Below are positions 34,753-53,235 of a stretch of DNA of 64,000 bases, one piece after another. The DNA comes from Thalassomonas sp. RHCl1 (GTDB lineage: Bacteria; Pseudomonadota; Gammaproteobacteria; Enterobacterales; Alteromonadaceae). The notes beneath the pieces were generated by a model. That model was not told where the DNA came from. It did no database searches and saw nothing but the letters and a program-made list of their open reading frames with translations. The stretch lies in assembly GCF_947387555.1 (NCBI RefSeq), contig NZ_CANDNZ010000001.1:806001-870000 (forward strand), written 5' to 3'. The translations under genes were made by a program, and so were the position numbers. How positions within the stretch are numbered: position 1 is the first letter of the stretch; every line of letters begins with the position of its first letter.

Positions 34753-34772
34753 CGCACAAGTCTGGGAATTTT

Positions 34773-36288: not shown

Positions 36289-37743
36289 TCACTGAATGAT
36301 TTTGATCCAGTCCCCTGGCTCCGGCTCTCCCCTGGGATAAAGGCCATTGATCAGCCTCAGCTGTTGCGGAGCATAGGCGCCGATTTTCAATTGCTTGGCG
36401 AGTTGCTCTATGTTGGTATTTTCATTGGCTTTGACATAATGCAGTGTTTTCGACTTCTGCTTGCGGGCACTGCTTTTTTGCGGTTTGAAACTGTGGATGC
36501 TTTTTAAAAACAGCTCGTCATAATTGACATCGGCTTTGGCTGCGAGCACAGAGCCGGTGAGCATATAGGCGCGGCGACCCTGGTAGAGTACGGCGACCCT
36601 TTGCTGATAATCACCCTTTTCGTTAACAATAATGCCGGTATGGCCGATCAGGCCGTTTTGGGCAAAATCTTCCGAGCGCTGCAGCATTTGGGTTTTCATC
36701 ATGCCGCGCAGGTAATCCCCGGGAGAAATGCCTTTTTTGTTCAGGGCAACCGTTAGTTTTAATTCCGCTGATTTATCTTCCGGCTGGCCGACAATGGCCT
36801 GACGGGTATTTTCAACTTGCCATTTCTCCGGAAACTGTAGTGAAAACCCTAATTTATCATGGGTGTACAGACCGGGAATTTTCGGCTGTGCTTTGAGTTT
36901 GGCATCATAGTTGACGCCGTAAACCAGGCCTTCGGTATGTTTGCGGTATTCGCTTTTATTGTGGGTACTGTCCTGGTTTTCGGGAAACTCTCCGGCTTTG
37001 GCGATCACCTCTTTAAGGCGGATGTCATTACGCGGGTGGCTGGCGAAAACGCCGTGATAGCTTCTGGCTTTTTTGCCTTCTTCTTTTGCCCGGTAGCGGG
37101 AGAATTTTTCCTGGTCTTTCAATACCCCTATGGTTTCTACCATGGCCAGGGGATCATATCCGCTGTTAAACAAGTATTCGGCGCCAAAACCGTCTGCTTC
37201 GAGCTCCATTTCCCGGCCATAACCCTGGACGGCGGCGGTACTCCAGAGGTTAGTGACATCGCCTATAACTGTGCTGCCGGTGGTAAAGACCGAGAAGATA
37301 GATAAGATGCCGGCGCCTTTGCGGGCGGTATCCTGGCGCACGACATGCCTGGCGGTGACATGGCCGACCTCATGGGCCAATACCGCCGCCAGCTGGGCTT
37401 CTGAGTCAAGGTAGGCAAGCAGGCCGCGGTTGATATAGATATAACCGCCGGGCAGGGCAAAGGCATTGATATCCGGGGCATCGATGACGGTGAAATGATA
37501 TTTGATATCCGGCCTGTGGCTGTTTTTCGCCACTTTCTGGCCGATCCGGTCGATATAGGCGGCCAGGGCATCATCGTGATAGACAGGGACGGACTTGAGC
37601 AGTTTTTCATGCATTTCCTTGCCCATGGCGATTTCTGCCTCTTCAGACATCAGCACCAGATCCGGGGTACCTGTAGCCGGGTTGATCGAACAGGAGGCTA
37701 AGGCCAGTAGCAGCAGGGGAATGGATAAAAGTCGGTAGTTCAT
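36289..37743 (-). CDS. M48-family metalloprotease lipoprotein (BepA/LoiP-like)
   Basis: A 484-residue zinc protease with a lipoprotein signal (LLLALASCS). The M48 catalytic motif HEVGH is at about residue 124, inside VLAHEVGHVTARHVV, and the third ligand region ELEADGFGAEYL is at about 180. A middle domain of unknown type follows, and the C-terminus (about 425-484) looks like a LysM-type peptidoglycan-binding module (NTNIEQLAKQL to GDWIKII). It probably works in outer-membrane quality control. It sits 78 bases behind the vWA/TolQ gene cluster and may be co-transcribed with it. Confidence 0.9.
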   Translation of the reverse strand: MNYRLLSIPLLLLALASCSINPATGTPDLVLMSEEAEIAMGKEMHEKLLKSVPVYHDDALAAYIDRIGQKVAKNSHRPDIKYHFTVIDAPDINAFALPGGYIYINRGLLAYLDSEAQLAAVLAHEVGHVTARHVVRQDTARKGAGILSIFSVFTTGSTVIGDVTNLWSTAAVQGYGREMELEADGFGAEYLFNSGYDPLAMVETIGVLKDQEKFSRYRAKEEGKKARSYHGVFASHPRNDIRLKEVIAKAGEFPENQDSTHNKSEYRKHTEGLVYGVNYDAKLKAQPKIPGLYTHDKLGFSLQFPEKWQVENTRQAIVGQPEDKSAELKLTVALNKKGISPGDYLRGMMKTQMLQRSEDFAQNGLIGHTGIIVNEKGDYQQRVAVLYQGRRAYMLTGSVLAAKADVNYDELFLKSIHSFKPQKSSARKQKSKTLHYVKANENTNIEQLAKQLKIGAYAPQQLRLINGLYPRGEPEPGDWIKIIQ

Positions 37744-37821: not shown

Positions 37822-38505
37822 TCACTCATTTGCCTGGTTTTGCGAACTGCTGAAAAAACTTTGCAACTGGTTGGCCATGGCGCTGCAGGCCTGACTTTGC
37901 ACTTGTGCCAGCAAGGGGATGGGAATCACGATGGCCGGCATATAAGAGGTGCCGTCGGCAACACTGCTGACTTTGCCCACCAGTTTTTTGGTGCGGTAAT
38001 CCCAGACGGAGGCTTCATATTCGGCTTTTTCATCCCAGGTGCCAAAACCGAAACAGCTGACCCCGGCGGGTGAAAGGCCGCAGCTGATGCTGCCGCCGCC
38101 CCGGGTTTTTTCGGTGACGCCGTCGATCCAGACAATGTAGTGAACATTATATTCATCGATGATTTGTGCGATATCATCAAAGGACAGCAGCCTTTGTAAA
38201 TCCCAGACATGAACCGGGGCGGTGCGGGCTTCAAACCAGGGATAAAGGCGGTCGACAAACTCCTGCTCCGGAATGACATTCATGGGGTTATTACCCTTGA
38301 GCAGGGTCTTGCCGATGCAGGAAATCAGTTCCGGTTCGGTTTCATAATCATTACCGCTGCGCCTGCCGATAACCACGATGGACTCACCGTCTTTCAGTTC
38401 GCTCGGCACGTGTTTTACCTGGTCTATGGTGACCGAAGTACAGGCACTGAGTGCCAGGGTTAACAACAGATATAAAGTACTTGTTTGTTTAAACAGGTTT
38501 TTCAT
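37822..38505 (-). CDS. Lipoprotein of unknown function in the vWA/TolQ cluster
   Basis: A 227-residue protein with a clear lipobox (LTLALSAC, Cys22). The mature part is alpha/beta with the core VHYIVWIDGVTEKTRGGGS and a strand-rich stretch that ends in a probable C-terminal helix. It resembles periplasmic lipoproteins that read out as hypothetical. It lies 56 bases after the upstream gene of the same operon. I do not recognise a family. Confidence 0.75.
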   Translation of the reverse strand: MKNLFKQTSTLYLLLTLALSACTSVTIDQVKHVPSELKDGESIVVIGRRSGNDYETEPELISCIGKTLLKGNNPMNVIPEQEFVDRLYPWFEARTAPVHVWDLQRLLSFDDIAQIIDEYNVHYIVWIDGVTEKTRGGGSISCGLSPAGVSCFGFGTWDEKAEYEASVWDYRTKKLVGKVSSVADGTSYMPAIVIPIPLLAQVQSQACSAMANQLQSFFSSSQNQANE

Positions 38506-38561
38506 TTCACTTCACCTTTGTTACCTAAGTTAGACCCCTAGATGAATAAAATTACTTATTA

Positions 38562-39191
38562 TTATTGCAGCTGGCCGTGTTTATTGAGCCAGCTGTTGAT
38601 TTCCGGGATATGGCTGAACTTTAGCGATAAACCGGCACCGACATCCCGAAGGGCAATGATCATCGCCTCATTTAAGGCATTTTCTTCTGATTTCATAAAA
38701 GCGGTGGGGGTTTTGCCGTAGGCGGTCAATATCCAGTCGGCGATAAGCAGCCCCTGGCCGTCATAGACTTTCATATTGTATTTGATCCACACTTCGAACA
38801 TATTGACCTTGGTTTCCCTGGGCATATTGTATTGAAACTCTTCAACATAGGGTTCAAAGAACAAGTCTATATCGGCATTTTCCTGCGGGCCGATGTTTGA
38901 TACCTGCACCACATTTTCAAACATGGCCGGCAGCACGGTATCGAATAAAGCCACCTGGGCATTGCCGATGTTAATTTCCCATTTACTGCGTTTTTCACTT
39001 TTTTCCACATAGCGGTAGCGGCGAAAATCATCCTGGTAGTGGACGGCAACTTGCAGGGGCAGTTGGTGGATCACCGGACGGGGAAAGTCTCCTTCTACCT
39101 GCAAGGTGCTGGTACAACTGAGACAGCCGAGTAATAAAAGCGTTGAGGCCAGTTTCAATAATTGCTTGATGTGCTGTTTAATCGTTGCCAT
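38562..39191 (-). CDS. Lipoprotein of unknown function in the vWA/TolQ cluster
   Basis: A 209-residue protein with a lipoprotein-type signal (LLLLGCLSC). The mature part begins with strands (QLPLQVAVHYQDDFRRYRY) and includes VDLFFEP-like and VWIKYNMKVYDGQG segments, a pattern seen in TolB- or DUF-type periplasmic lipoproteins. It starts 15 bases after the vWA gene and is clearly part of the operon. Function unknown. Confidence 0.75.
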   Translation of the reverse strand: MATIKQHIKQLLKLASTLLLLGCLSCTSTLQVEGDFPRPVIHQLPLQVAVHYQDDFRRYRYVEKSEKRSKWEINIGNAQVALFDTVLPAMFENVVQVSNIGPQENADIDLFFEPYVEEFQYNMPRETKVNMFEVWIKYNMKVYDGQGLLIADWILTAYGKTPTAFMKSEENALNEAMIIALRDVGAGLSLKFSHIPEINSWLNKHGQLQ

Positions 39192-39206
39192 AAGTTTATC
39201 CGTCCA

Positions 39207-40208
39207 TTAAGGCCTGAAGTCATTGAGGCCAACAAAAGTGCCGCCGTTTCTGTAGCTGAGCTCTCTCATCAAGGTAGCGAAGCGTATGCCGGTTTTTTGC
39301 AGGTATTTTGGGCGCATAAACTGCACCGGAAAGCCAACGGCATGGATACGCACCAGGCGTTCGTTATTGGCGCTGACTTTGTTGATGCGCTCTATGGTTG
39401 ACAGGACATTTTCTATCGAGCGTCCCGAAAACTCGTCTCCCATGACATAAAGGCTGATTTTTTTGTCCTGGGCAAAAAAGGTGCGGATAGCTTTTTGTAT
39501 GCCTTCGACCGGGCTGGAGTTGCTAAAGGGGTTCCAGCTTCTTAGCCGTTTGATAATCGCCCTGCGCCTGGCTTTGGTATCCGGGATCCATTTGCGGCGA
39601 TAATTGTTAAACATATAGTTGCCCATATCGTTCATGATCTGTATGCCTTTGACTTCTGGATAAATATTCAAGGTGGCAATGATCTCTTCCTGCATTCTTT
39701 CCCAGGCGTAGTTATACATGCTGCCGGAGGTATCTATGATAAAGATTAAGTATTCGCTATCGACCGGGATCCCGCCAATTAAATCGTTTTTACTTTTATA
39801 GTCCTGGCCGAGTAAGCGCTCCATTTCTTCGGAGAGGCTTTGCAGCGCCAGTGCCAATTTGCCTTTTTCCTGACTGCTGAAGGAGGCGGCACGTGACACC
39901 TGGGCATGTTGGGCTTCTATGGTGGCCAAGCGGGTGCGCAATATCGCCAGGCGTTTTTTTTCGCTGTCGATTTGCTCGTGTTTTGCCGTCAGGTCCCGGT
40001 TATAAATGGTGGTTTCCCCGCGTATGGTAAACAGGGTCTCCTGCAGTTCTTTTAGTTGGGCGTCGAGGTTGATACTCGATTCTTCCAAGACAATCGGTGC
40101 CATGGTTTTGGTGATCATCAAGAGTAAAATGATGGCACCGAAACCGCAGCAAATTACGTCCAGGAAGGCGATGGAGAACTCTTCGGAGCCGCGACGTTTT
40201 CTGCTCAT
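39207..40208 (-). CDS. Membrane-anchored von Willebrand A protein with TolR-like helix (second)
   Basis: A 333-residue protein. The N-terminus has one transmembrane helix in the form FSIAFLDVICCGFGAIILLL (about 11-30); the Asp sits where TolR/ExbD/MotB carry the proton-binding aspartate. A coiled coil (about 45-130) follows, then a vWA domain (about 145-330) with the MIDAS start DTSGS and a later Asp in MGDEFSG; the middle MIDAS Thr appears to be Ser. The start at 40208 is chosen because AGGAGG lies 5 bases before it; a longer frame would overlap the upstream gene. It lies 8 bases behind the first vWA gene. Confidence 0.88.
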   Translation of the reverse strand: MSRKRRGSEEFSIAFLDVICCGFGAIILLLMITKTMAPIVLEESSINLDAQLKELQETLFTIRGETTIYNRDLTAKHEQIDSEKKRLAILRTRLATIEAQHAQVSRAASFSSQEKGKLALALQSLSEEMERLLGQDYKSKNDLIGGIPVDSEYLIFIIDTSGSMYNYAWERMQEEIIATLNIYPEVKGIQIMNDMGNYMFNNYRRKWIPDTKARRRAIIKRLRSWNPFSNSSPVEGIQKAIRTFFAQDKKISLYVMGDEFSGRSIENVLSTIERINKVSANNERLVRIHAVGFPVQFMRPKYLQKTGIRFATLMRELSYRNGGTFVGLNDFRP

Positions 40209-40216
40209 ATCACCTC

Positions 40217-41293
40217 CTAGGGCCAGTCTTTGGACGGACTCATAAACGAGCCGAGTGAATGCTGGGCCAGCTTCCAGAAAGCCGATGCCGCCATGGGATC
40301 GCCTTCCATCGGCCATAATAAGATATTGACCGGGATGCCCTCGGGTAAGGTTTCGACCGCCAGGTTAAACAGCTCTTCTCTTTCCTGGCCGGAGACGGTA
40401 TGTCCCTTAGGTGCCTTGAGTCCCTGGGTGGGCAAGCCGTCGGTGAGCAAGACGATATTGTCGGGCAGGGGGTCGAGAAAGCTGACGGCCCGAAAGGCGT
40501 TTTCAAGGCTGGTGCCGCCACCCGGCACCAGCTCATGCAGGGCGGTAATCCCGGTATTTAATTTTTCTTCGTCGGCGATAGCAAGCCATTGATGTGTGGT
40601 GTCAGCCAATAAGGCCCGGGTTTGGGTATTAAAGACATAAAGTTGGTACTGGCTGCTCAGGGGAAATTTTGCCACCAGCCATTCCACCGCCCGTATTGCC
40701 CTTTGCCATTTTTTTGATTGTTTTTTACTTTCATCGGACATGTTTTTGCGCCGTATGATATTGACGATATGGTTGTCAAGCATGCTGGCGGAGACATCGA
40801 GCAGGATTAAGGTTCTGGCACCGCCGAGCTTTAAGCCGGTAAGGTATTGCCGCTCTCCCTGGCCGATAAAGCGCCTGGCATCATTGCCCTGGGCCTGCTC
40901 GTCTTCGAGTTTTTTCTTCTCCAGCATCAGGGTTCTTAGCTGTTCTTTCATCTTGATGATCTGCTGGTCGTCGCTTTCCTGATCCAGTACGGCAATTTTA
41001 TTGGCGATGGCATCGATTTCATCATTGATGCGCCGGGCAAGGCCGCTGGCTTCCACCAGCTCCTGGTCCAGCAGGGAAAGGGTATTTTTAATTTTCACCA
41101 ACTGGGCTTGTCCTTCGGTGACTTCTTCATCCAACAGGTTAACTTCGGCCTGCAACTCAAGGTTTTGCTCTTCCACCTGGGTATTGACATCGTGTTTGAT
41201 AATTAAAAACACCAGCACCACCGCGCCGAAGCCGCAAGACATAATGTCGAGAAAAGACAGGCTGAAGGTGGAAAATTTTCTTTTGCCGGCCAT
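40217..41293 (-). CDS. Membrane-anchored von Willebrand A protein with TolR-like helix (first)
   Basis: A 358-residue paralogue of the next gene's product. The N-terminal helix reads FSLSFLDIMSCGFGAVVLVF (about 8-27), with the TolR-type Asp. A coiled coil (about 40-125) spans the near periplasm, and the vWA domain (about 150-355) has a complete MIDAS: DVSAS, GGGTS and LTDG. It sits between the Hsp70-like gene (2-base gap) and the second vWA gene. I infer that the two vWA proteins form the TolR/MotB half of a stator whose TolQ half is encoded three genes upstream. Metal-dependent binding to a periplasmic ligand is likely. Confidence 0.9.
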   Translation of the reverse strand: MAGKRKFSTFSLSFLDIMSCGFGAVVLVFLIIKHDVNTQVEEQNLELQAEVNLLDEEVTEGQAQLVKIKNTLSLLDQELVEASGLARRINDEIDAIANKIAVLDQESDDQQIIKMKEQLRTLMLEKKKLEDEQAQGNDARRFIGQGERQYLTGLKLGGARTLILLDVSASMLDNHIVNIIRRKNMSDESKKQSKKWQRAIRAVEWLVAKFPLSSQYQLYVFNTQTRALLADTTHQWLAIADEEKLNTGITALHELVPGGGTSLENAFRAVSFLDPLPDNIVLLTDGLPTQGLKAPKGHTVSGQEREELFNLAVETLPEGIPVNILLWPMEGDPMAASAFWKLAQHSLGSFMSPSKDWP

Positions 41294-41295
41294 AG

Positions 41296-42636
41296 CTAAT
41301 GCAACGCCTCTTCGACTTTAAGCAATAAAAACATCGCTTGCTCCCGGCCGACACTGATAGTGTCTCCCCTGTAAAGCAGCTGGTTGTCCCGGGCGGGTTT
41401 GCCATTAATCCGGACCTGAGGTGAGTTTTCTCCGCCTGACCGGCTTATGAGGCTCAGTTGCCAGCCTTTGCCTGTTCGAATTAATTTTGCTGCATCACCC
41501 TTCCCGGGATTAAGCGAGAGGGCATTGCTATCGGCAGTGCTCAGGTAAAGTGGTTTATCCGTTAACGGATAGGCGTGCCCCTTATATGCCAGGTGAGAGC
41601 ACGCCAGGTGAGAGCGGTTAGCGTCCGGGGCTAAATCAGAAGGCCGGCTTTTACTGTGTAAGCCGTCAGTATCTGCTTTGTTTACGTTAAGATTAACCGG
41701 CAAGCGTGTGATCAGGGCTATTTGTTTATTTTTCGTCAGGTTATTGAGGTGGCATTCGATATTTGTTTCCAGCTTGCTTTCATCAAGCAATAACATGGCT
41801 TCAAGGGCTGTCTCGGTTGTCAATACTGCCTTTAACCTTGGGGTAATATAGACAGTGGGATACTCACTGGCGGAAGCCAGAACCGGGGCAAAAAAATGGT
41901 TTATTTGTTCCCGGATTTCCCGGGCAGAAACTTTAAGGGTTTTATCGCTGATATTTAGCTGGTAGCTGGCCTGCTCGCAGGGGATGATGTCGTTAAAATA
42001 GTTATAAACGGTTTGCTCGGCCCTGGCGGTGGCAAAGATGTCGTAGCGGCATTCGATGATAAATTTTTTATTGAGCCAGGCAGCCAGGTGTTTATAAAGG
42101 TCGTGAAGTCCCTTGTGGGGGATCACATGCGTATTCACCAGGGAGAGGTGTTGATCGGCGTATAGTTCATTCAGGTTGCAGTGATGCAAACCCAGATCTA
42201 ACAACGCCAGCTTGCCTGCCTGCTGGTGATGGGCAAGCTTGATAACGGCTTCATTGATAACGGCAATAATTTTTAATTGGCATGAGCCAGCAATGCCCAG
42301 CAATAAAGACAGTTGCTGCTGACTGTAGTTGGCGGGCACCATCAAGATGGTATCCTGGATGTTGCTGCATTGCTCTGTCAGGGCTTTAAGCTGTAAATAG
42401 GCGAGGTCGGCAAAATGCCTGACCTGGGCATTTGGGGTAGCAATTTCTTCATAACCCAGCTGTTGCCAGTAGCGGCAATAAAAGTTGGCAGGGGAGAGCT
42501 TGCCCCGGGTAAAAGCATCCTGGCCGAAGAGCAGTTGATCTTTTTCAATCAGGGCATAACCGCTTTGGCTTAGGGATTTTTCCCCCTGGCGGAGCGTCAG
42601 CTGGTGATCATTAATTTCTATCAGGGTTAAAGGCAT
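41296..42636 (-). CDS. Hsp70/actin-fold protein with C-terminal FHA-like domain
   Basis: A 446-residue cytoplasmic protein. The first 300 residues follow the Hsp70/actin pattern: ILMVPANYSQQQLSLLLGIA, then VINEAVIKLAHHQ and a phosphate-2-like strand LALLDLGLHHCNL, although the glycine-rich loops are altered, so ATPase activity is uncertain. The C-terminus (about 370-442) has the FHA pattern: SLNPGKGDAAKL, SRSGGENSPQVRING, LLYRGDTISVG. FHA domains bind phosphothreonine. It is flanked without gaps by the TolQ-like gene (1 base) and the vWA genes, so it is likely the cytoplasmic regulator of that complex. Confidence 0.75.
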   Translation of the reverse strand: MPLTLIEINDHQLTLRQGEKSLSQSGYALIEKDQLLFGQDAFTRGKLSPANFYCRYWQQLGYEEIATPNAQVRHFADLAYLQLKALTEQCSNIQDTILMVPANYSQQQLSLLLGIAGSCQLKIIAVINEAVIKLAHHQQAGKLALLDLGLHHCNLNELYADQHLSLVNTHVIPHKGLHDLYKHLAAWLNKKFIIECRYDIFATARAEQTVYNYFNDIIPCEQASYQLNISDKTLKVSAREIREQINHFFAPVLASASEYPTVYITPRLKAVLTTETALEAMLLLDESKLETNIECHLNNLTKNKQIALITRLPVNLNVNKADTDGLHSKSRPSDLAPDANRSHLACSHLAYKGHAYPLTDKPLYLSTADSNALSLNPGKGDAAKLIRTGKGWQLSLISRSGGENSPQVRINGKPARDNQLLYRGDTISVGREQAMFLLLKVEEALH

Positions 42637-43449
42637 CTAATCCACCTTGTTGATATCGGTTTTCAGGTGGTTGAGCAGGTTACCGTCACAGTAGTCCTGG
42701 GTGTTTTGTACCAAACGCTCCTGCATAAGTTGTAACTGGTGGGTGAAAAACATAATAAAGATACTGATCACCAAAGCGATAAAGGTTGAGTTAAAGGCGA
42801 CCCCCAAACTGTTGGTTACGCCGATAATATTGCCTTCCACTGCCTGGTGTGCCTGGCCAAGGGCTTCGCCTATCCCCCTTACGGTACCGATAAAACCTAT
42901 TGAGGGGATTGCCCAGGAAATATAGCGGACCATGGCCAGCTCGCTGTCGAGGCGATCGGCTTCGGCCTCGCAAATATCTTTTATGGCGGTGGCGACGGCG
43001 GCGACATTGGCGGTGGCAGAAAAGCGTTTTAAGGCAACCAGTAAGGTACGCGGGGCCAGCATGCCTTGTTTTTCCGGCGATAATCCCTGCAGCGGCCTGC
43101 ATAATGCCCGGGCATCTTCGGGTAATATACTTGCCCCTTCCTGCACGTCTAATATCGACTGAGCCAGCATATGTTTTTCCTGCAAGGCCAGTCTGGCCTT
43201 ATAACCCATGATCATCATGGCCCATAACATTAAAATCAGACAGGTTTCCTGCTCATAGTCTTTTAAAACGACATATAAGGATCTCTGGTTGGTGACGCTC
43301 GCTCCGGCAAGTTGCTGCGCTTCTTGTTGTTTGATGATGGCTTCTGCTTCCGGTCGAACCAGGGTTACATAAACGGCATGTACAATAATTACCGAGAGCA
43401 GCAAGGCAAAAAGCTGGTATATAAATTCTGAGCCTAGATCACGTTTCAT
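42637..43449 (-). CDS. MotA/TolQ/ExbB-family proton channel subunit
   Basis: A 270-residue inner-membrane protein. Helices are at about 10-30, 66-84, 183-203 and 220-242. The family core is visible in the last two: SIGFIGTVRGIGEALGQA and GVAFNSTFIALVISIFIMFF, with the conserved Thr and Ser facing the proton path. A cytoplasmic domain lies between helices 2 and 3. TolQ-type proteins use the proton-motive force to move a partner with a TolR-type helix; here the partners would be the two vWA proteins. It starts 21 bases after the small secreted protein. Confidence 0.92.
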   Translation of the reverse strand: MKRDLGSEFIYQLFALLLSVIIVHAVYVTLVRPEAEAIIKQQEAQQLAGASVTNQRSLYVVLKDYEQETCLILMLWAMMIMGYKARLALQEKHMLAQSILDVQEGASILPEDARALCRPLQGLSPEKQGMLAPRTLLVALKRFSATANVAAVATAIKDICEAEADRLDSELAMVRYISWAIPSIGFIGTVRGIGEALGQAHQAVEGNIIGVTNSLGVAFNSTFIALVISIFIMFFTHQLQLMQERLVQNTQDYCDGNLLNHLKTDINKVD

Positions 43450-43470
43450 CTGCTTTCATCCTGGTGGTTA

Positions 43471-43761
43471 TTAAATATCTACCGGGAAAGAGACGGCTAA
43501 GTCTTCAGAAATCTCTTCCGTCGGGGTAAAAGTGTCCTGTTGCTTATCTGCTGTTTTCACCGTTTGTTGTTTTTCAGTGTCTCCCTTTTTCTCGGTTTTA
43601 TTTGTGTTATCACCGGTAACTTCTTTATCCCGGGGAGTTTTTACCTGTTCTTGTGCCGGCTCTGCCTGGAGCTGGTTAATTACCGGCTGGTTATTGAGTG
43701 CCTGCGCAGGGACCGAAACCATCAAGATAAGTATCGCTGTCTGGTAGTGATGTCTAACCAT
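43471..43761 (-). CDS. Small exported Lys/Thr/Glu-rich protein
   Basis: A 96-residue protein with a signal peptide (cleaved near VPAQALNNQ), followed by a low-complexity hydrophilic tail rich in K, T, E, D and Q, and a short C-terminal segment EDLAVSFPVDI. It sits in the operon 17 bases after the PEGA/FGE gene and 21 before the TolQ-like gene. Probably a disordered periplasmic linker or substrate. No family recognised. Confidence 0.65.
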   Translation of the reverse strand: MVRHHYQTAILILMVSVPAQALNNQPVINQLQAEPAQEQVKTPRDKEVTGDNTNKTEKKGDTEKQQTVKTADKQQDTFTPTEEISEDLAVSFPVDI

Positions 43762-43778
43762 AACTTTCTCCGCTTTCC

Positions 43779-45872
43779 TTATAGTGCGTTGCGCGCAATT
43801 CTAAACCCGAGATCGTCACGTTTATCATTGCCGTAATCGCGAAACGATAAGCGCAGCTCAGTTCGGGTGCCGTGGGCCCAGCTGGCTCCGCGAATGACAT
43901 GGTAGTCCCCGGACTCAGGCCCAGAGGGATCTTTTTCTGTTTTTAACGATAACCCGGTCTGGATTTGATAATAATCGTGGATCCATTCGGCAACATTACC
44001 CGGCAGATCATAAAGGCCTTTTTCATTGGCGGTAAAAGAAGCCACGGGAGCTGTGGTAATATAGTGATCATTATAGGTGGGCTGAATTTCGCCCAGGATG
44101 GCGGCACCGGCGATATCGCCGATGTTTGCCGAGCCTTCTTTGGGGGGTAACGACTCTCCCCAGGCATATTTCAACATTTTGCCGCCCTGGTAGCGGGCGG
44201 CCCAAACCCACTCGGCTTCTGTCGGCAGGCGATAACCGTTGGCATCAAGGTTGATGCCGGTGAGCTTGTTATCCGTTATTTGATATACCTGCTCCAGTTG
44301 CTCTTTTTCCGATAACCAGTTGCAAAAAGTAACCGCTTCGAGCCAGGTGATCCTGACCACAGGCTGCTTGCTGGCGTTAAGGGAGTTCCCCTTGACATGC
44401 CCGGACGAGTGGTCTTTTTTAAATAGCCGGAATTCTTTATTGGTCACTTCCGTCAAGCCAAGATAAAAAGCCCGGGTAAGTTTGATCTCCCTTCTGACTT
44501 CATTGGCCCGCCGGCCTTGTTCCCGGCGGGAGGCGCCCATCACAAAAGTATCATTGGGTTTAAATAACTTGAGTTTACTGCCTGTGCCGCTTGCGATAAC
44601 AGGCGCTAAGCGGTCGAATTTATCCTGGGCCAAGGTTTTTAGCTGTACTGAAAAAACCTGCTCCATCGAGGGGTTGGGCAATATTTGCGTTTTATAGTCG
44701 ACAAAACCTTCCTTGACTATCCGGACAGTTTGCTGTTTTGCCGGTAGGGTCATTTGTTGGTTTGCCCGTCCCATCAGGCGCTCGTCGATATACAGCAGGG
44801 CATCGGCGGGGGTAACTTGGAAGTTGATCTCGCCGACAATAGGTTGCAGGTTAAAGGCCTGATTAACCGTTTGCCCGGAAGGTACTTTTAATGAGGTGGC
44901 ATATTCCTGATAGCCATCTTTAAACAGCAGCAGGGGCTGGCTTGAGTCAGGTTTGACGGCGGCAGTTAAGGGGGTTGTCCCCAGGTATTGATCGCCGTAA
45001 GTAACACTGACCCCGGCAGGAGTTGAGGTAATGACCAGTTTGCCCGTGAGCTTAAACAGGGAGACGGGGTCGAGTGTCATGTCGATACCTGCCGTTACCT
45101 TGAGCTCCCGTTGAGTTTGTTTGTAACCGGCTTTTTGATAACTTATCTGATACTCTCCCTGGAGTACTTCGGCAGATAAGGGGGTTATGCCCAGTAATTT
45201 GTCCAGATGATAAACTTGTGCCCCTGAAGGCTGCGAGTTAAAGCTGATATTTGCCCATGCCGGGGTAAGTTTTACTTCAAGGCTTTGTTCTATTTCTTTG
45301 CCTTCAATCTGCACCTCAGTGGTAAAAGGTAAAAAGCGCTCGCTGTTAAGGGTTAACAGGTGCTTGCCGGCAGCTATATTACTGATGGTATTTTCTATCT
45401 GCTTAACGGGCTTGCCGTCGATAAAAACTGCAACAGGGGTTTGCGGCTGAAGGGCTAAAGTGAGTTTGCCAGGCAGGCGGGTAAATTCAAAGTTCAGCTG
45501 TTGGTTTTGTAACTCGCTGACGGTAAAGGATTGTTTTAGGGGAAAATGCCCTTTTAAACTCGCGCTTAACTGGTATTCCCCCGGCAGCATAAGAAAGTGA
45601 TCTGCAAGTTCAAAATGCAGTCCGCCGGATATTTCGAGTTTACTTGCCTGGGGGAAAGTGATCAGAACAACAGATTTTGCGGTAAAAAGGTAAGCTAGAA
45701 TCAGGCAGGCGAGTAAAAGTACGCTTGCGGTCACATAAACATAAGGCCGGTACTGTTTTTTAACGGTTTTGGCTTTTGTGTGGGCGGTCGGGGTAAAAGG
45801 CGCCGGGATAATAATGCCGGACTGATCGGCATTGGCGCTATCCTTTATGCTGCTTTGAAGGTATTTGTTCAT
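43779..45872 (-). CDS. PEGA-repeat protein with C-terminal FGE/SUMF1-like domain lacking catalytic cysteines
   Basis: A 697-residue protein with a cytoplasmic N-terminus (about 1-45), one transmembrane helix (about 46-68), four to five PEGA repeats (about 75-410; for example GTTPLTAAVKP and GITPLSAEVLQ), and an FGE-sulfatase/SUMF1 domain (about 420-697). The FGE fold is clear from EVTNKEFRLF, VRITWLEAVTFCNWLS, GYRLPTEAEWVWAAR, GLYDLPGNVAEWIHDYY and RGASWAHGT. The two active-site cysteines normally found after RGGSW are absent, so formylglycine formation is unlikely. A structural or binding role, as for GldJ/GldK of gliding bacteria, is more plausible. Overlaps its upstream neighbour by 4 bases. 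Confidence 0.88.
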   Translation of the reverse strand: MNKYLQSSIKDSANADQSGIIIPAPFTPTAHTKAKTVKKQYRPYVYVTASVLLLACLILAYLFTAKSVVLITFPQASKLEISGGLHFELADHFLMLPGEYQLSASLKGHFPLKQSFTVSELQNQQLNFEFTRLPGKLTLALQPQTPVAVFIDGKPVKQIENTISNIAAGKHLLTLNSERFLPFTTEVQIEGKEIEQSLEVKLTPAWANISFNSQPSGAQVYHLDKLLGITPLSAEVLQGEYQISYQKAGYKQTQRELKVTAGIDMTLDPVSLFKLTGKLVITSTPAGVSVTYGDQYLGTTPLTAAVKPDSSQPLLLFKDGYQEYATSLKVPSGQTVNQAFNLQPIVGEINFQVTPADALLYIDERLMGRANQQMTLPAKQQTVRIVKEGFVDYKTQILPNPSMEQVFSVQLKTLAQDKFDRLAPVIASGTGSKLKLFKPNDTFVMGASRREQGRRANEVRREIKLTRAFYLGLTEVTNKEFRLFKKDHSSGHVKGNSLNASKQPVVRITWLEAVTFCNWLSEKEQLEQVYQITDNKLTGINLDANGYRLPTEAEWVWAARYQGGKMLKYAWGESLPPKEGSANIGDIAGAAILGEIQPTYNDHYITTAPVASFTANEKGLYDLPGNVAEWIHDYYQIQTGLSLKTEKDPSGPESGDYHVIRGASWAHGTRTELRLSFRDYGNDKRDDLGFRIARNAL

Positions 45873-47392
45873 CCGTTGCTCACTTTTTCACTGCAGGCTA
45901 TGGTGATGGTTTTGGCTGGGTTGCCGGGCATCAAGGTAAACTCCTGGCGTACATCCCGGTAACCGTCTCTTGAGCCTGTGATGGTGTATTGTCCCGGGGT
46001 TAAAGACAGGTCTTTGGCGAGAAAGTTACCTAATTCACCGACTCGATATAAGGTGACTTTGGTGTGGTTGTCTGATTGGATTCTTAACGATACCGGCTGT
46101 TTTATTTGTGCCAATAATTTTTTTACGTCAACTATTTGTTGCTGGAGCTTTGCTCCCGGAGTCTTTATTTTTAAAGCATCGCTATATACTTTCTGTGCCT
46201 GGGCAAAAACTTTGTCGCTGGCCAACCGCGTTGGCTTTTCCAGGATCAGGCTAAGATTTTCGTCCAAATCTGCCCGGGCTTGGCTGCGTAACTGACCAAC
46301 TTTTGCCGATATTAAGGTTTGATCCAGGGTTAAGGCCTGCTGGTAGCTCTTTTGGGCAAGTTGCCAGTTTTCTTCCTGCTCCAATTGTTTTGCCTGTTGC
46401 ATCTTTTCTGTGATGGCGGCTTTTAATGCCTGACTTTTCGCCTGTAAGATGGCTTTTTGCGGGTCGGTTGCCGAGGGTAAAATTTTTCCGGCGGCGGTAA
46501 AATGGCTAATTGCGGATGGATAATTTTTACTTTTGAGGTTTTTATAGCCGCGAGACATGGCAAGTGAGTAGTCCCTTTCTTTAATGGCGTTGTTAACCCG
46601 GGTCAGCTCTGCGATGACCAGCGGGGACTGGTTATCAAGGGCGGCAGCCTGCTTGAGTATTTTTATGGAGGCTTCAAGCTGCTGTTCATCCATCAAGACT
46701 TCGCCTTGTTTAACCAACTCCAATACCTGATCCAGTACCAGGGCGCGGTCAAAGGCCTGTTGCGCGCTTTCGTTGTCGGGCATCAGGTGCAGGGCTATCT
46801 GTAATTGCTGTTTTGCTTGGGCGGCATTATTGGCTGTTAATGCTGTTTGCCCCTGCGCCAGGTGACGGGCAAAAACGTCGGGGATATCGGCTTCTATGGC
46901 TTGCAGTTGGCTCAAGGTGCTGCGGTAGCTCTGCATTGCCTGCTCAAACTCCTGACTGCGATAGAAAAGATCGCCGTTTTCTGCATTTTTAATGGCTTGG
47001 GAGAAGGCTGCTTCAGCCCATAAAGTAACTTTTTTTTCTTCCAGGGCTTTTTGTCTGGTCAGTACCTGGGAGAGGATTTCCTGGGCCTGGCGTCTGTGTT
47101 TGGCTAACTGGGCTTCCTGCCAGGGAGATTCGTCTATCGGTTTTTGTGCCTCTACCGCCATCAGGCTTTTGGCATCTAACTCGACTTCAGGCTCGGATAC
47201 CGAGGCGGGCAGTTGCACTATGACAAAATATAATACCGCCAGCAGAGTTAGCAGTAATAAAAGAATAAGATAATGACTGACAAACCAGTTAAGGATATTT
47301 TTCTTAGACAATAACCCCTTGTGGTCAAAGTTTAAAGAAACGGTTTGTTGTGTTTTTTTGTTGTTCTCTTTTGCGTGCTCTACCGGTGCCAT
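45869..47392 (-). CDS. Membrane-anchored TPR/coiled-coil protein with C-terminal PEGA-like domain
   Basis: A 507-residue bitopic protein with a cytoplasmic N-terminus, a helix at about 36-60 (HYLILLLLLTLLAVLYFVIV), then helical repeats (TPR-like, with Ala/Leu/Gln-rich motifs such as ARHLAQGQTALTANNAAQAK) to about 420, and a PEGA-like beta domain at the end (SLTPGQYTITGSRDGYRDV). It overlaps the PEGA/FGE gene by 4 bases (ATGA type), so the two are translationally coupled and probably partners. It is likely a periplasmic scaffold. Confidence 0.82.
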   Translation of the reverse strand: MAPVEHAKENNKKTQQTVSLNFDHKGLLSKKNILNWFVSHYLILLLLLTLLAVLYFVIVQLPASVSEPEVELDAKSLMAVEAQKPIDESPWQEAQLAKHRRQAQEILSQVLTRQKALEEKKVTLWAEAAFSQAIKNAENGDLFYRSQEFEQAMQSYRSTLSQLQAIEADIPDVFARHLAQGQTALTANNAAQAKQQLQIALHLMPDNESAQQAFDRALVLDQVLELVKQGEVLMDEQQLEASIKILKQAAALDNQSPLVIAELTRVNNAIKERDYSLAMSRGYKNLKSKNYPSAISHFTAAGKILPSATDPQKAILQAKSQALKAAITEKMQQAKQLEQEENWQLAQKSYQQALTLDQTLISAKVGQLRSQARADLDENLSLILEKPTRLASDKVFAQAQKVYSDALKIKTPGAKLQQQIVDVKKLLAQIKQPVSLRIQSDNHTKVTLYRVGELGNFLAKDLSLTPGQYTITGSRDGYRDVRQEFTLMPGNPAKTITIACSEKVSNG

Positions 47393-47510
47393 GGCTACCC
47401 CATTAAAGTGTTCACCCTCAGTACGTTATGCTTGAGTTTTATTAGTATCTATTTTTATTTATAGTCCAAAAATCACTCTCACCCACGGTTATTTTTACTT
47501 TAAGGCAAGG

Positions 47511-48695
47511 TTAATTTCCGGTTTCTGATTGATAAATCTCTTGTAATATTTTTTTCCATTGCTGGTATTGGTTATCGACTGTACCGGATAGCGTGACGGT
47601 TCTGTCTTCGAGTTCTATTACCTGAGATTCGATACTTGCCTGTAATGAATCCCCCAGCTCCTGCAGCGCTTCGATATGAATTTGTGCATCGGCATCACGC
47701 TCAAATCCGTCTTTGAGCACATAGGCGCCTCCGGCAACGGCAACACTGCTTGCTGCCCTGGCGGAGCCGGTGGAACTGCCCGCACCATAGATACCGGCGA
47801 TAATGGCGGCGGCACCGATCATTTTCTGATTTAAGGCTTTGTCTTTCATTTTTCGCATGGCGATCACTTCGTTATAACTCTCACTGCGCCACTGTTTGTA
47901 AGGGGCTTTCATCTCTTTAGCGTAACTGCTGTAATATTCCTGCAAGGTATCTACGAACAGGTAATCGCGCTCGCGAATTTGCTTGATGCGTGCCAGCATA
48001 GGGTCGTTTTCGGCGGGCAGGCGGTTGATAAGATAAAGGCCGGATTCATCTTGTGATAAGTGCTCTGAGAAGGTTTGCGGCGAGAAGTCTCTGGCGAACT
48101 TTAATTCCGAGACCAGTCTTAATTCCACCAGTTGTTGTGAAGTAAGTGATTTTCGGTATTCGTTAAGATCATTACTGATACGGTTATAAATATTCTGAAA
48201 AGGCTCAAACCTTAACTGGGTTTTCTTATCGTAAGAGTAGCGGCTGGCTTTTTGGGCGTATTGCTTGTTAAACCAGTGATGCCCCCGGGAGTCGACGACA
48301 TCCACCATGACAATGAGCTGTTCGCCGTCGGACTGGATGATATCCCCTTTGACCAGGACATCCACCGAGTCATGGCCTGTAGGCACAACCCGGACGGCCC
48401 CCCAGGCGCCGCTCGACTGTAAGGTTTCCATTAACAGGTAAGGGAAAAAACTGGCTTCGGCTATGCGGATCTCGGGGAAAACCAGGGTATCTTCATCTAA
48501 TTGCTCCAGGTTTTCCAGGCCGGGATCAAAAATGCGTATGCCGATATCGAGTAACTCGTCCTCCGGGATGTCGGCTGTTTCATGAACTACGGGGATCTGT
48601 TCGGTGGTTTTTATTTCTGTTGTTTTGCACCCGGTAACTGACAAGGTCGACAACAGCAACAAGAAAATAACTGTATTGGACAATAGTCGGTTCAT
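47511..48695 (-). CDS. Lipoprotein with C-terminal BON-like/glycine-rich region
   Basis: A 394-residue lipoprotein (lipobox SVTGC, Cys23). The N-terminal half is alpha/beta and TolB-like in flavour (FPEIRIAEASFFPYLLMETL, VLVKGDIIQSDG). A glycine/alanine-rich hydrophobic segment follows (about 285-330, IGAAAIIAGIYGAGSS), like a glycine zipper, and the end (ESQVIELEDRTVTLSGTVDNQY) looks like a BON-type motif. It sits 3 bases after the Ser/Ala-rich gene. Probably periplasmic or outer-membrane. Function unknown. Confidence 0.78.
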   Translation of the reverse strand: MNRLLSNTVIFLLLLSTLSVTGCKTTEIKTTEQIPVVHETADIPEDELLDIGIRIFDPGLENLEQLDEDTLVFPEIRIAEASFFPYLLMETLQSSGAWGAVRVVPTGHDSVDVLVKGDIIQSDGEQLIVMVDVVDSRGHHWFNKQYAQKASRYSYDKKTQLRFEPFQNIYNRISNDLNEYRKSLTSQQLVELRLVSELKFARDFSPQTFSEHLSQDESGLYLINRLPAENDPMLARIKQIRERDYLFVDTLQEYYSSYAKEMKAPYKQWRSESYNEVIAMRKMKDKALNQKMIGAAAIIAGIYGAGSSTGSARAASSVAVAGGAYVLKDGFERDADAQIHIEALQELGDSLQASIESQVIELEDRTVTLSGTVDNQYQQWKKILQEIYQSETGN

Positions 48696-48698
48696 AGC

Positions 48699-49913
48699 TT
48701 AATGGCCTTTGGTTTGGTTTTTGTATTTACGGTATTCATCCCAAAGCTTCTCCCGTAATTTGGGGTCGGCTTCTTTTAATGCCGCTTCCCTGATTTGCCG
48801 GGCAACGACGTCATCATCGTTACCGCTTGGGATATCGGCAGGGGGGGTATAAACGGTTTGGTTGTGCTGATAATCACCTTCCCTTTGGGAAGAGGGCAAT
48901 TCCGGCATGCCACCCGAACTTGAAGGAAAGGCGGTTTGTTCCGGTGCGCCCGATGTTTTTGCCGTGGCACTGGCCTCTGCGCCATTTAATACATCATCAT
49001 ATAAAGGTCCTGCGTTGGCGACCGCTTGTTCGCTGCCCTGCTCGGCGCCTTTATTTTGAATATACTCCCGTTCGCTTAAAATCATGCCGTCGTAATCACT
49101 CATTGAGCTGTTAAGCCGTTCATCAAGCTCGGCTACTTGCTCGCCCCGGGTTCGGGTATTGATCATTCCTCCGGCGGGGGCTGCATTTCCCCCTGGCTGC
49201 TGGCCCGGGGAAGCGGCCTGATTCGAACTTGTCGATTGAGTTGAAGCATGTCCCCCGGCAGCAGCGCCAGGTTGGGATGAGCTATTTGGGTTTGCGTTAG
49301 AACTAGATGATGATTGGCTTGCCTGACTGGCACTGGCACTGGCACTGGCACTGGCACTGGCACTGGCACTGGCACTGGCACTGGCACTGGCACTGGCACT
49401 GGCCGAAGATTGAGCCGAAGATTGAGCCGAAGCGCTGCTTTCACTTGCTTGAGATTGACTGGATGAGCTGGAGGCCGTGACTTCTTCTTCCGAAAAATCA
49501 ATATCGTCACTGGAGCTTTCTGAGTTAGTACCGGCCATATCTTCGTTATTTTCAGATTGTTCATTGTTATCCCTGCTATCGCCGCTTTGCTGCGTTGACG
49601 CGGACTCTGTGCTGCCGGCATCGGCTTGTGGAGAACCATCAGATTGATTGCCCTGGTTAGCCGAAGTATTGCCGGTGCTCGCTGACGGGCCTTGCTGTTG
49701 AGACTGAGCCGAACTTGGGCTGGATGAAGCGCTGGAGTCAGACGAACTGGAACTGGATGAAGAGCTTGAGCTCGAACTCGAAGGACTACTGGGAGATGAA
49801 CTGCTGGGTGATGAAGTCGGTGGTTTGCTCTGTTGCTGTTGTGTTGATTGACAGCCGGACATACACAAGAGTAAAGAAGTTATTATTATCGTAATGGTAG
49901 ATTTATTCATCAT
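48699..49913 (-). CDS. Ser/Ala-rich low-complexity lipoprotein
   Basis: A 404-residue lipoprotein starting at the double ATG 49913/49910, chosen because AAGG lies just upstream; a longer frame from 49943 would overlap the upstream gene. Signal with lipobox CMSGC, then a very long disordered region (about 20-260) of Ser, Pro, Gln and Asn with a stretch of Ser-Ala dipeptides, and a conserved-looking C-terminal part (about 260-404: TRTRGEQVAELDERLNSSMS, then QIREAALKEADPKLREKLWD). The layout suggests a flexible tether with a small functional end, spanning the periplasm or reaching outward. Next gene starts after 3 bases. Confidence 0.8.
   Translation of the reverse strand: MMNKSTITIIITSLLLCMSGCQSTQQQQSKPPTSSPSSSSPSSPSSSSSSSSSSSSSSDSSASSSPSSAQSQQQGPSASTGNTSANQGNQSDGSPQADAGSTESASTQQSGDSRDNNEQSENNEDMAGTNSESSSDDIDFSEEEVTASSSSSQSQASESSASAQSSAQSSASASASASASASASASASASASASASQASQSSSSSNANPNSSSQPGAAAGGHASTQSTSSNQAASPGQQPGGNAAPAGGMINTRTRGEQVAELDERLNSSMSDYDGMILSEREYIQNKGAEQGSEQAVANAGPLYDDVLNGAEASATAKTSGAPEQTAFPSSSGGMPELPSSQREGDYQHNQTVYTPPADIPSGNDDDVVARQIREAALKEADPKLREKLWDEYRKYKNQTKGH
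49326..49403 (-). repeat. Perfect hexanucleotide tandem repeat coding for Ser-Ala
   Basis: ACTGGC on the plus strand (GCCAGT on the coding strand) is repeated 13 times in a row, without error, inside the lipoprotein gene. Since the unit is six bases, changes in copy number would lengthen or shorten the Ser-Ala stretch without a frameshift. Confidence 0.95.
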
Positions 49914-49926
49914 TCTGGCCTTGTGA

Positions 49927-51234
49927 TTATTCAGGAAATACATGCAGCTGCAGTTGCTCGGTAAAGATGGTCATGCCATCAGAAATTTGAGGACGAAACT
50001 TTGTTGTTCTTAATGACTTCAATGCCTTGGTTTTGATTGGGCTGTTATCCGGCGGATTAGAGCTGACAATCTTAATGTTTCTTGCCTTACCATATTTTGT
50101 AACATCTAAAGTGGCGTGGACATACCGTACATCGGTGGTGAGTTCGGTATCACTTTTAATGGCACGGGTTCTTTGTTGCAGGTTGGGGTAATGGGGCAAA
50201 GCCACAGGCTGACTGAATAATTGCTCAAGAAATTCTTTGTTTTTATCTGTTGCCACTGCGTAGTCATAGGCTTCCTGGTAATGACGCAAGGCTGTTTGTC
50301 TTTTATTATGCATCAGAAACCAGTCGGCCAGTTTGAGCTTGACCTTGGCAATTGCCTGATGATCAACTTGCGTCTGTCCTTGCAAAACTGTTAATTTTCG
50401 CTGGATGATTTTTTTTCCGGTCACAAAGCTTTTACGCTTCATTTCTGCGATGAGAATATCGGATTTTTTCATTTGCACCTGAAGTTGTTCGTTCATGGCA
50501 TAAACCTTTTCAACCGAACTGCGCATGACATGGGAGGCAATAAAGTAATTGGTCAGCATCAGGCCATTTAACGGTGTGATCAAGCGTTCATCTGTCTCAC
50601 CATAGGTATTGGTGATTAGGTTGACCGCCCGATCAAATAAAGAGTAGGAATAGATCAAGTCCTGAGTCGGATCCGGTAATAGTTGCATGGCATAAGCTTC
50701 TAAATGCCAGTTGGCGATTTGCAGTTCCATATCAAGGCGGTTTATATCCATATCATCAAAATTTCTGGCATATAACCAGTACATGTAATAATACTTGTCA
50801 TTCACCTGCTCCCATTGCTTTCTTTTTTTGTAGCTTTCGATCATTTTTTCTAAAATTGGGATTTGGGTTAATGAATACAGGCCTTCATTAATCCGGCTCA
50901 GATGCAGTGCCCGTTTATATACCTGAACCGCATCTTCATGTTTTTCGTAATGTTGGTAAATATTGCCCAGGTTGACCAGTTTTTGCGCAATCTGCTCGCT
51001 GTACATGCCTTCTGTGGATTCTATTTTTTCAACAGCAGCCTGGTATTTATCAATTTCATCACTGAGTTTTTGTATGCCGGCCTGCCTGACATCTTTACTT
51101 TCGCTTTGCTTTGTATTGCTGCTTGGAGCAGTTGAGTTACCGGTTATTTCGGCATCGAATGGCACGGCAATAACTTTTTGACTGATCAGGAAGATAATGA
51201 AGGAAAGTACCGAGCAGGCGATTAACAACCTCAT
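49927..51234 (-). CDS. TPR-like periplasmic protein with TonB-like C-terminal domain
   Basis: A 435-residue protein with an N-terminal signal or anchor (residues about 3-23), helical TPR-like repeats (about 60-340; for example LVNLGNIYQHYEKHEDAVQV and WFLMHNKRQTALRHYQEAYD), and a C-terminal region (about 355-435) with the TonB-C pattern: ATLDVTKYGKARNIKIVSS, then LKSLRTTKFRP. It is the promoter-proximal gene of the long minus-strand operon. TonB-like ends contact outer-membrane partners, consistent with an energy-transducing envelope system. It lies 13 bases from the next gene. Confidence 0.83.
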   Translation of the reverse strand: MRLLIACSVLSFIIFLISQKVIAVPFDAEITGNSTAPSSNTKQSESKDVRQAGIQKLSDEIDKYQAAVEKIESTEGMYSEQIAQKLVNLGNIYQHYEKHEDAVQVYKRALHLSRINEGLYSLTQIPILEKMIESYKKRKQWEQVNDKYYYMYWLYARNFDDMDINRLDMELQIANWHLEAYAMQLLPDPTQDLIYSYSLFDRAVNLITNTYGETDERLITPLNGLMLTNYFIASHVMRSSVEKVYAMNEQLQVQMKKSDILIAEMKRKSFVTGKKIIQRKLTVLQGQTQVDHQAIAKVKLKLADWFLMHNKRQTALRHYQEAYDYAVATDKNKEFLEQLFSQPVALPHYPNLQQRTRAIKSDTELTTDVRYVHATLDVTKYGKARNIKIVSSNPPDNSPIKTKALKSLRTTKFRPQISDGMTIFTEQLQLHVFPE

Positions 51235-51897: not shown

Positions 51898-52962
51898 ATG
51901 GCAACCTACCAAACTCGAAATGGCAGAGTTCGTGCTACGATTCGCAGCAAGCATCTGGCCCAAAATAGCCTGTCAAAAACGTTTGATTCTCAAAAAGAGG
52001 CAAAAGCATGGGTCAAGAAGGAAGAGGCCAAAATTACGCTTGGCCAACAGATAAAAGCGCAGCCCTTATCGAACATTTACTTTAATCAGCTCGTTGACCA
52101 CCATCAAGTCAAAATCTTAAAAATCTCCGAAAGTAAAGCGGAGGATATCGCCGATAAGAAAAACCGGAAAAAGTTTAATGAGTTAGCTCGGCTAAAAAAG
52201 AACTTTCAAGGTTACACCCTATCAGAAATGACCCCGCAGGTAATCGCCGGTTATATCGCTAAAAGAATGTTAACGGATGAGGTGTGCTGGGATACAGTAA
52301 AGCGAGATATGCAAGATATCACGGCTGTGTTGGAAACCGCTGTCTTTGACCTCGAGTATAACGTTGACTATGAAATAGTTAAAAAAGGTGTAAAAGTTTT
52401 TGATAAGAAGCATAAAACAGTTAAACGTAAATCTGTTAAGCGCACTCGTAGGTTAAGTGATGAAGAATTTGAAATACTAGTCAAGTGTAAAAGAAAGTAT
52501 GCCACAGTTGTTTTATTCGCAGCTGAAACATCAATGCGAAGGGGGGAATTGGCCAGGTTAATTGGTGCTGATGTGGATTTAGATAAAAAGTTGCTTAAGA
52601 TCAACAGATCGAAAATAGATGAGCACTTGCTTGATAAAGGCTTGGAAGCTGGACGAGTCATTCCGTTGTCTAATAGAGCTATAGAGTTATACAAGAGGTT
52701 GGAAAAAAAGAATCCAGAAGCTTTAGTTTTAGGTTGTACAGATCCCGGCAGTATCACACAAGGGTGGGATCGTTTAGCCAAAGATTTAGGTTTTACAGAT
52801 TTGCGATTTCATGATATGCGACACGAGGCAACGAGCAGGCTGTTTGAAAAAGATTTAGCTATTCCAAAAGTTTCGGCTATTACAGGTCATATGGATTGGG
52901 AGTCATTGAAGCGGTATACACAGCTTAACCCTGAAAAGTTGGTGGATTTGCTAAATGATTAA
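51898..52962 (+). CDS. int: Tyrosine recombinase (phage integrase)
   Basis: A 354-residue tyrosine recombinase. An N-terminal arm-binding part (with AT-rich AP2-like start MATYQTRNGRVRATI) and a core-binding domain precede the catalytic domain (about 180-350). Catalytic residues are visible: Arg in TSMRRGELARL, His-x-x-Arg in FHDMRHEATSRLF, His in ITGHMDW and Tyr in LKRYTQL. It lies about 90 bases inside the tRNA fragment, the usual position for an integrase acting there. Many filamentous phages instead use host XerCD. Confidence 0.95.
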   Translation: MATYQTRNGRVRATIRSKHLAQNSLSKTFDSQKEAKAWVKKEEAKITLGQQIKAQPLSNIYFNQLVDHHQVKILKISESKAEDIADKKNRKKFNELARLKKNFQGYTLSEMTPQVIAGYIAKRMLTDEVCWDTVKRDMQDITAVLETAVFDLEYNVDYEIVKKGVKVFDKKHKTVKRKSVKRTRRLSDEEFEILVKCKRKYATVVLFAAETSMRRGELARLIGADVDLDKKLLKINRSKIDEHLLDKGLEAGRVIPLSNRAIELYKRLEKKNPEALVLGCTDPGSITQGWDRLAKDLGFTDLRFHDMRHEATSRLFEKDLAIPKVSAITGHMDWESLKRYTQLNPEKLVDLLND

Positions 52963-53225
52963 AATATAAAGTTCTTTTTTTCGCGTACCAATTTTATTTT
53001 GGGTTGGTGAATATAATGAGCAACTTCAATAGTAGGGATTATGTAAGTATTACCTTCATGTTGGTAATTTATATTTAAATTACCGTGTTTTAGCTTTTCT
53101 TTAGTTTTTCTTAAACTCATTTTTAAAACCTCTGAAAGCTGTTCTAAGCTCATGATTACTCCATACTTTTTTACTAAAGCTTGGTTTGTCACTTGCACAA
53201 ATTCACTTATCATTTTTTTATCCAT
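52959..53225 (-). CDS. Small DNA-binding protein, possible excisionase or regulator
   Basis: An 88-residue protein with a helix-turn-helix-like middle (MSLEQLSEVLKMSLRKTKEKL) and a basic C-terminus. Size, position convergent with the integrase (4-base overlap) and the HTH suggest a recombination directionality factor or a regulator of the cargo operon. An ATTACA-N3-TGTAAT site lies 11-25 bases upstream of its start, so it is probably under control of the phage repressor. AT-rich. Confidence 0.65.
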   Translation of the reverse strand: MDKKMISEFVQVTNQALVKKYGVIMSLEQLSEVLKMSLRKTKEKLKHGNLNINYQHEGNTYIIPTIEVAHYIHQPKIKLVREKKNFIF

Positions 53226-53235
53226 AAATTAATGT

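Follow-up and report, generated by a model that had tools for sequence, protein, structure and literature searches.

The proton-driven 5:2 motors that are understood are few (MotAB, ExbBD, TolQR, GldLM, Agl and Zorya). The subject here is a twelve-gene operon in a 64,000-nucleotide stretch of the Thalassomonas sp. RHCl1 genome (contig NZ_CANDNZ010000001.1, positions 806,001 to 870,000; the whole stretch is termed the window), which encodes a TolQ-like channel, two different von Willebrand factor A domain proteins (vWA1 and vWA2) and a protein termed PEGA_FGE, in which PEGA repeats are joined to a domain resembling formylglycine-generating enzyme (FGE). TolQRA-Pal and ExbBD-TonB share the channel family and the transpore Asp and Thr residues with this operon, whereas vWA heads here stand in place of TolR, TolA or TonB, and no TolB or Pal match was found. 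In Zorya, ZorAB consists of a MotA/TolQ-type channel with a dedicated axle protein; the axle in the window differs in bearing a vWA head, and the ten operon proteins scanned gave no effector match. Bat (aerotolerance) operons bring vWA and tetratricopeptide repeat (TPR) membrane proteins together, but Bat proteins have, to our knowledge, no TolQ partner, and the present operon is unlike them in giving no MoxR or DUF58 match and a BatC match only at E 0.0089. PorKLMN (GldKLMN) likewise has a 5:2 motor driven by the proton-motive force (PMF) next to a pseudo-FGE protein without the FGE cysteines, the differences here being the PEGA repeats, the N-terminal membrane anchor and a heterologous, vWA-headed axle pair.

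TolQ homologues accompanied by heterologous vWA pairs, each with a TolR-like transpore helix and its Asp, were described in the text of Williams-Jones et al. 2025 (PMC12204202), together with AlphaFold3 models of TolQ-vWA pairing in which the helices lie in the pentamer pore, and the second vWA family of that paper was found around Idiomarina loihiensis. The motor reported there resembles that of the window in combining a TolQ homologue with two different vWA proteins with the TolR-type helix and Asp, with no TolR or ExbD. Unlike it, the window represents a separate clade with an add-on module, and the main text of PMC12204202 (figures with gene clusters aside) mentions neither PEGA, formylglycine nor sulfatase, so that no PEGA/FGE partner appears in it. 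This was the sole paper describing the motor that was identified, subscription papers and preprints lying outside the search. The available text of PMC7159879, on vWA-MoxR systems, contains no TolQ, ExbB or MotA, and that of PMC9389320 no mention of vWA. The first-pass annotation of the window had stated that it knew of no named system having this set of parts. This holds for the name, as the motor carries neither name nor phenotype in the text of PMC12204202, but a TolQ homologue with paired transpore-helix vWA proteins is already described there, and the motor itself is therefore not new. What is added here is a fixed six-gene core, the co-occurrence of its genes, its division into two clades, and the add-on module of one of them, clade A.

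The six core genes, encoding the lipoprotein LipoC, the periplasmic TPR protein TPR_N, PEGA_FGE, the TolQ-like channel, vWA1 and vWA2, kept this order and a common strand in 61 of the 61 loci uncut by contig ends, out of 65 distinct loci, and spanned 7.5-10.1 kb as measured on open frames in 60 fetched loci and the window. The core was seen in two clades, and the loci come from at least four families, of which one is from another class. Loci were taken from all positives of the family sample, from one genome each of two further families (G016 and G408), and from 12 of the 13 positives of the second class; a fragmentary positive genome (G410) was left out. Sixty-nine loci were fetched and five duplicate contigs dropped, giving 64, or 65 with the window, and four of the 65 (L008, L140, L142 and L146), cut by contig ends, were excluded from the order count. 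The TolQ homologue adjoined the heterologous vWA pair in 64 of the 65 distinct loci, the contig of L146 ending too early, and vWA1 and vWA2 were always found together in uncut loci. At the level of whole genomes, the LipoC profile and vWA2 matched one identical set of 45 among the 295 family genomes, the two samples appearing identical among the genomes listed, with 230 negatives unlisted. The gene set thus recurs together, and the earlier proposal of one co-inherited set around a TolQ-like motor and two proteins with a TolR-type helix and a vWA domain, for which co-occurrence had been suggested as the check, is borne out.

In the window, the twelve genes lie on the minus strand from 51234 to 37822 with intergenic gaps of at most 118 bases, and an M48 protease gene is next, which confirms the single operon proposed on first reading. 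The genes are:
49927..51234, minus strand: exported TPR protein with a weak TonB-like C-terminus, clade-A accessory (TPR_12 5.9e-10)
48699..49943, minus strand: Ser-rich lipoprotein whose C-terminal motif is conserved; in clade B, exported proteins occupy the corresponding position
47511..48695, minus strand: LipoC, core lipoprotein; Gly-rich hydrophobic segment (by sight), BON-like end (0.037, weak)
45869..47392, minus strand: TPR_N, core periplasmic TPR protein anchored in the inner membrane (TPR_2 3.9e-6); hydrophobic segment 32-68, PEGA-like end by sight
43779..45872, minus strand: PEGA_FGE, core, anchored in the inner membrane (FGE 4.6e-42, PEGA 4.5e-39); hydrophobic segment 41-76
43471..43761, minus strand: small exported or anchored protein of clade A, poorly conserved
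42637..43449, minus strand: TolQ/ExbB/MotA-type channel, core, with Thr189 and Thr222 (MotA_ExbB 4e-13)
41296..42636, minus strand: degenerate Hsp70-fold protein with an FHA-like end, clade-A accessory
40217..41293, minus strand: vWA1, core (VWA_2 1.4e-7); transpore helix with Asp16, proline-free stalk of about 100 residues, head with metal ion-dependent adhesion site (MIDAS)
39207..40208, minus strand: vWA2, core (start moved from 40316 to 40208); transpore helix with the same Asp, stalk, head with DxSGS
38562..39191, minus strand: LipoD, lipoprotein, clade-A accessory (no Pfam match)
37822..38505, minus strand: LipoE, lipoprotein, clade-A accessory (no Pfam match)
36289..37743, minus strand: M48 peptidase lipoprotein, clade-A accessory (Peptidase_M48 6.9e-35), closing the conserved run

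Genome-wide searches, in which limited candidates per genome were scored and absences are accordingly not absolute, placed the gene set in 45 of the 295 genomes sampled from the family, spread over 17 of 52 genera, in 4 of 295 from the order and in 16 of 398 from the phylum, each count including the Thalassomonas genome itself. Thirteen of the 16 positives in the phylum sample belong to one family in another class, suspected but unproven to be Zetaproteobacteria, 13 of 78 genomes of that class being positive. A separate vWA1 scan of bacterial genomes gave nine relatives with the same gene order (Pseudoalteromonas, Colwellia, Algicola and an Alteromonadaceae metagenome-assembled genome), among which L008 is a short contig with a partial set and L004 and L006 are without the Hsp70/FHA gene. 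As presence is patchy inside genera (genus g6, for example, holds positives and the negative genome G090), shared ancestry alone is not a sufficient explanation, though the genomes are still non-independent. Carriage on plasmids was rejected, as a tblastn search with vWA2 gave no match among 72,556 plasmid records.

A tree of the six concatenated core proteins (FastTree, rooted at the midpoint without an outgroup, branch supports not printed) gave two groups, A with 20 loci including the window and B with 41. The clade labels had initially been assigned by the presence of LipoE, and the tree afterwards separated the same groups; counted as distinct loci, A comprises 21, including the cut L008, and B 44. 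Genomes G713 and G714 each carry one clade-A copy and one clade-B copy. LipoD, LipoE and M48 were present in 21 of 21 clade-A loci, with M48 following LipoE in all 20 fetched loci and the window, and were absent within the stretch in clade B, where 36 of the 44 loci have at least 4 kb after vWA2; the other eight have less than 4 kb, too little to judge downstream accessories. Of the 20 clade-A loci fetched, 16 have the exported TPR/TonB-like protein, and none of the 44 of clade B has it, although several stretches stop short of the gene; its orthologue in L010 matched TonB_C at 0.0074. The small protein at 43471..43761 was matched at E<=1e-5 in 16 of the 20 clade-A loci fetched and in no clade-B locus of the 44. 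Directly before LipoC, clade A has the Ser-rich exported protein and clade B a positional counterpart. Outside the cassette, no neighbour family occurred in more than 4 of 20 compared loci except the Ser-rich counterpart, in 6. The Ser-rich lipoprotein of the window (48699-49943) contains a long alternating Ala/Ser run.

The channel has 72-82% identity among relatives and one match in its own genome. Four hydrophobic segments were recognized by sight, two of them above the hydropathy threshold, and the TolQ-like family profile matched no PDB sequence at E 0.1. The GTVRGI- and AFNST-type Thr motifs, which we take to align with the pore threonines of TolQ/ExbB, were kept in 64 of 64 TolQ-like proteins. 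The Asp of an N-terminal FLD-type helix was kept in 64 of 64 vWA1 and 65 of 65 vWA2 proteins, vWA1 of L130 reading LLD. The MIDAS signature was kept in all 30 aligned vWA1 proteins and DxSGS in vWA2; residue counts for the vWA MIDAS, as for the FGE cysteines and the lipobox below, use 29-30 loci, not all 65. The genome gave 11 MotA_ExbB and 5 ExbD/TolR (PF02472) matches, the nearest ExbD/TolR lying about 170 kb off, and the PF02472 search, made in this genome only, found no TolR/ExbD match anywhere in the window. With both pore threonines, a TolR-type helix Asp in each vWA protein and no TolR/ExbD nearby, the operon supplies the parts from which a proton-driven 5:2 motor would be built. The distance from the transpore Asp to the MIDAS Asp was 149-151 residues in vWA1 and 142 in vWA2 of clade A, and 135-140 and 133-138, respectively, in clade B, and across 63 loci the stalk lengths of the two proteins were correlated (r 0.98). 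Proline is absent from the vWA1 stalk of the window, and the vWA2 stalk there has one at each end only. In L083-L087, of the second class, the vWA1 Asp lies upstream in frame of an open reading frame called too late, with no standard start codon; an in-frame CTG upstream of the transpore helix suggests a non-standard start. vWA2 matches with one internal stop were seen in three clade-B genomes, G670, G649 and G859 (L114, L119 and L120).

PEGA_FGE was compared with FGEs and with PorK. No Cys was found in the FGE active-site stretch in any of 29 loci, at what we take to be the position of the catalytic Cys pair, and a catalytic FGE was rejected on this ground. Among PDB entries, the top matches were a Treponema variable protein (1.5e-16) and two chains named 'Lipoprotein, putative' (1.2e-15 and 1.3e-15), and PorK (1.7e-15) scored better than true FGEs (2.4e-14 and weaker). 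The GldK model matched at 3.2e-30 with 105.8 bits, not reaching its cut-off of 350, and membership in the type 9 secretion system (T9SS) was rejected. GldL, GldM and GldN had no match in an NCBIfam scan of ten operon proteins (LipoD, LipoE and M48 outside the scan), and SprA/Sov (PF14349) none in the Thalassomonas genome or in any control genome. According to the text of PMC12421860, the FGE-like fold of PorK, without the cysteines, is the docking hub of the ring where the PorLM motor attaches. By analogy, the pseudo-FGE domain of the window may be a structural docking hub, with no T9SS membership claimed. A lipobox was found in LipoC in 26 of 29 loci; two LipoC genes occur in G713 and G714, where full-length vWA2 is also doubled, and one LipoC elsewhere.

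Our preferred reading, to which we give a probability of roughly 55%, is that the core encodes a dedicated trans-envelope PMF-driven 5:2 motor whose vWA1/vWA2 axle acts on the pseudo-FGE scaffold, as PorLM does on PorKN. Five TolQ-like subunits would enclose an axle made up of a single vWA1 and a single vWA2, whose stalks would form a coiled coil lifting both heads through the periplasm. Proton flow would rotate the axle, and the heads would engage the PEGA/pseudo-FGE and TPR assembly and LipoC in the outer membrane, driving or remodelling the assembly. The clade-A add-on (the Hsp70-fold/FHA-like protein, two lipoproteins, the TPR protein and M48) might assemble or service the motor. As for the output, our best guess is that the motor moves or assembles a structure of the outer membrane or one associated with peptidoglycan.

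Several points weigh against this reading. FGE-like domains are widespread and the Treponema protein outranks PorK, and the analogy with PorK may therefore be superficial; PEGA_FGE also has an N-terminal membrane segment, whereas PorK is an outer-membrane lipoprotein. The contact of LipoC with the vWA heads is putative. The stalk correlation mostly reflects the single A/B split, clade-B stalks hold several prolines, and the two vWA proteins may form two homodimeric motors in place of a heterodimer. For the first vWA family, the text of PMC12204202 reports no deletion phenotype, and none was found for the second family (TolQ with a vWA pair) in the literature searched, subscription papers and preprints again lying outside it.

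A phosphopeptide-sensing FHA protein had been proposed in the first-pass annotation to gate the motor. The protein at 41296..42636 has the fold of an Hsp70 nucleotide-binding domain, but DLGTT- and DLGGGT-type loops, presumably the Hsp70 phosphate loops for nucleotide binding, were found in 0 of 8 sequences. Neither the window protein nor two of its orthologues matched FHA in Pfam, and the canonical FHA Arg, Ser and His, which we take to be the usual phosphopeptide-binding residues, were not invariant among the eight. At 29-36% identity (versus 72-82% for the channel) the protein is among the least conserved members. Its gene sits between TolQ and vWA1 in 19 of 21 clade-A loci, window included, and is absent from the other two (L004 and L006) and from all of the 43 readable loci among the 44 of clade B, where the TolQ-vWA1 gap is at most 42 bases; genome-wide, 13 of the 295 family genomes have the protein, and every one of them carries clade A (13 of 15 clade-A genomes). 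Together, the gene absences, the low identity and the lost Hsp70 loops and FHA residues are evidence against a phosphopeptide gate, which was rejected, and a more fitting view of the protein is that of a clade-A scaffold or assembly factor that has degenerated. Weak defence-system matches to PDC-M10A in this protein (0.0094) and to LmuB in the vWA1 stalk region (0.0011) were taken as chance.

The same accessory genes bear on the alternative that survives best, a motor-energised chaperone or assembly and quality-control machine, in which clients or lipoproteins would bind to the vWA heads, an outer-membrane product would be folded and turned over by the Hsp70-like, TPR and M48 proteins acting in line, and no track would be moved. 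Many vWA systems are assembly factors, and the Hsp70 fold, the TPR proteins and the constant last position of M48 in clade A fit this view; however, clade B lacks the Hsp70-like gene, and the missing LipoD, LipoE and M48 there mean that these are not the essence of the machine, unless located elsewhere. As the operon also gave no MoxR ATPase match, we regard this alternative as doubtful. Ranking below it, and improbable in our view, is a Tol-Pal-like device for tethering or constricting the outer membrane as cells grow or divide, in which LipoC would take the part of TolB/Pal: a TolQ-type motor does lie alongside lipoproteins, but at least three further MotA_ExbB/ExbD pairs are encoded in the genome (C4:4.3-5.2 kb, C1:518 kb and C5:447 kb), the operon gave no TolA, TolB or OmpA-type match, and presence in 45 of 295 family genomes is too patchy to suit a housekeeping role. 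A Zorya-type anti-phage or anti-competitor system, suggested by a ZorA match (E 7.8e-4, channel domain only) and by the patchy distribution, is very improbable given that none of the ten scanned proteins (LipoD, LipoE and M48 again outside the scan) matched ZorB to ZorE at E 0.01, that the periplasmic and outer-membrane machinery is large, and that gene order is stable across families.

The operon is flanked in the window by other gene groups. An integrated filamentous-phage-like element at 51898-62456 comprises an integrase, a helix-turn-helix protein, a Rep_trans replication protein, DUF1293, DUF2523 and a Zot-family protein, the start of the integrase gene lying some 660 bases past that of the first operon gene. 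Adjoining the M48 gene on the opposite strand (28845-36236) are exporter genes (HlyD, ABC and two FtsX-MacB), after which come a sigma-54 response regulator gene and a histidine kinase gene, and a hybrid histidine kinase of 1719 amino acids with MASE3, PAS and receiver domains is encoded at 13828-18987.

Returning to the preferred PMF-driven motor, it is possible, and we propose it only tentatively, that the core stands for a further trans-envelope rotary class with an obligate vWA1/vWA2 heterodimer as axle, a driven pseudo-FGE/PEGA/TPR assembly coupled to LipoC, and an accessory module in clade A, which would extend the T9SS/gliding principle to Pseudomonadota. The vWA-type motor has a fixed partner set in these genomes, and with fixed partner proteins its function becomes testable. 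If the pseudo-FGE protein is the driven element, the design principle of type 9 secretion and gliding would recur in another phylum.

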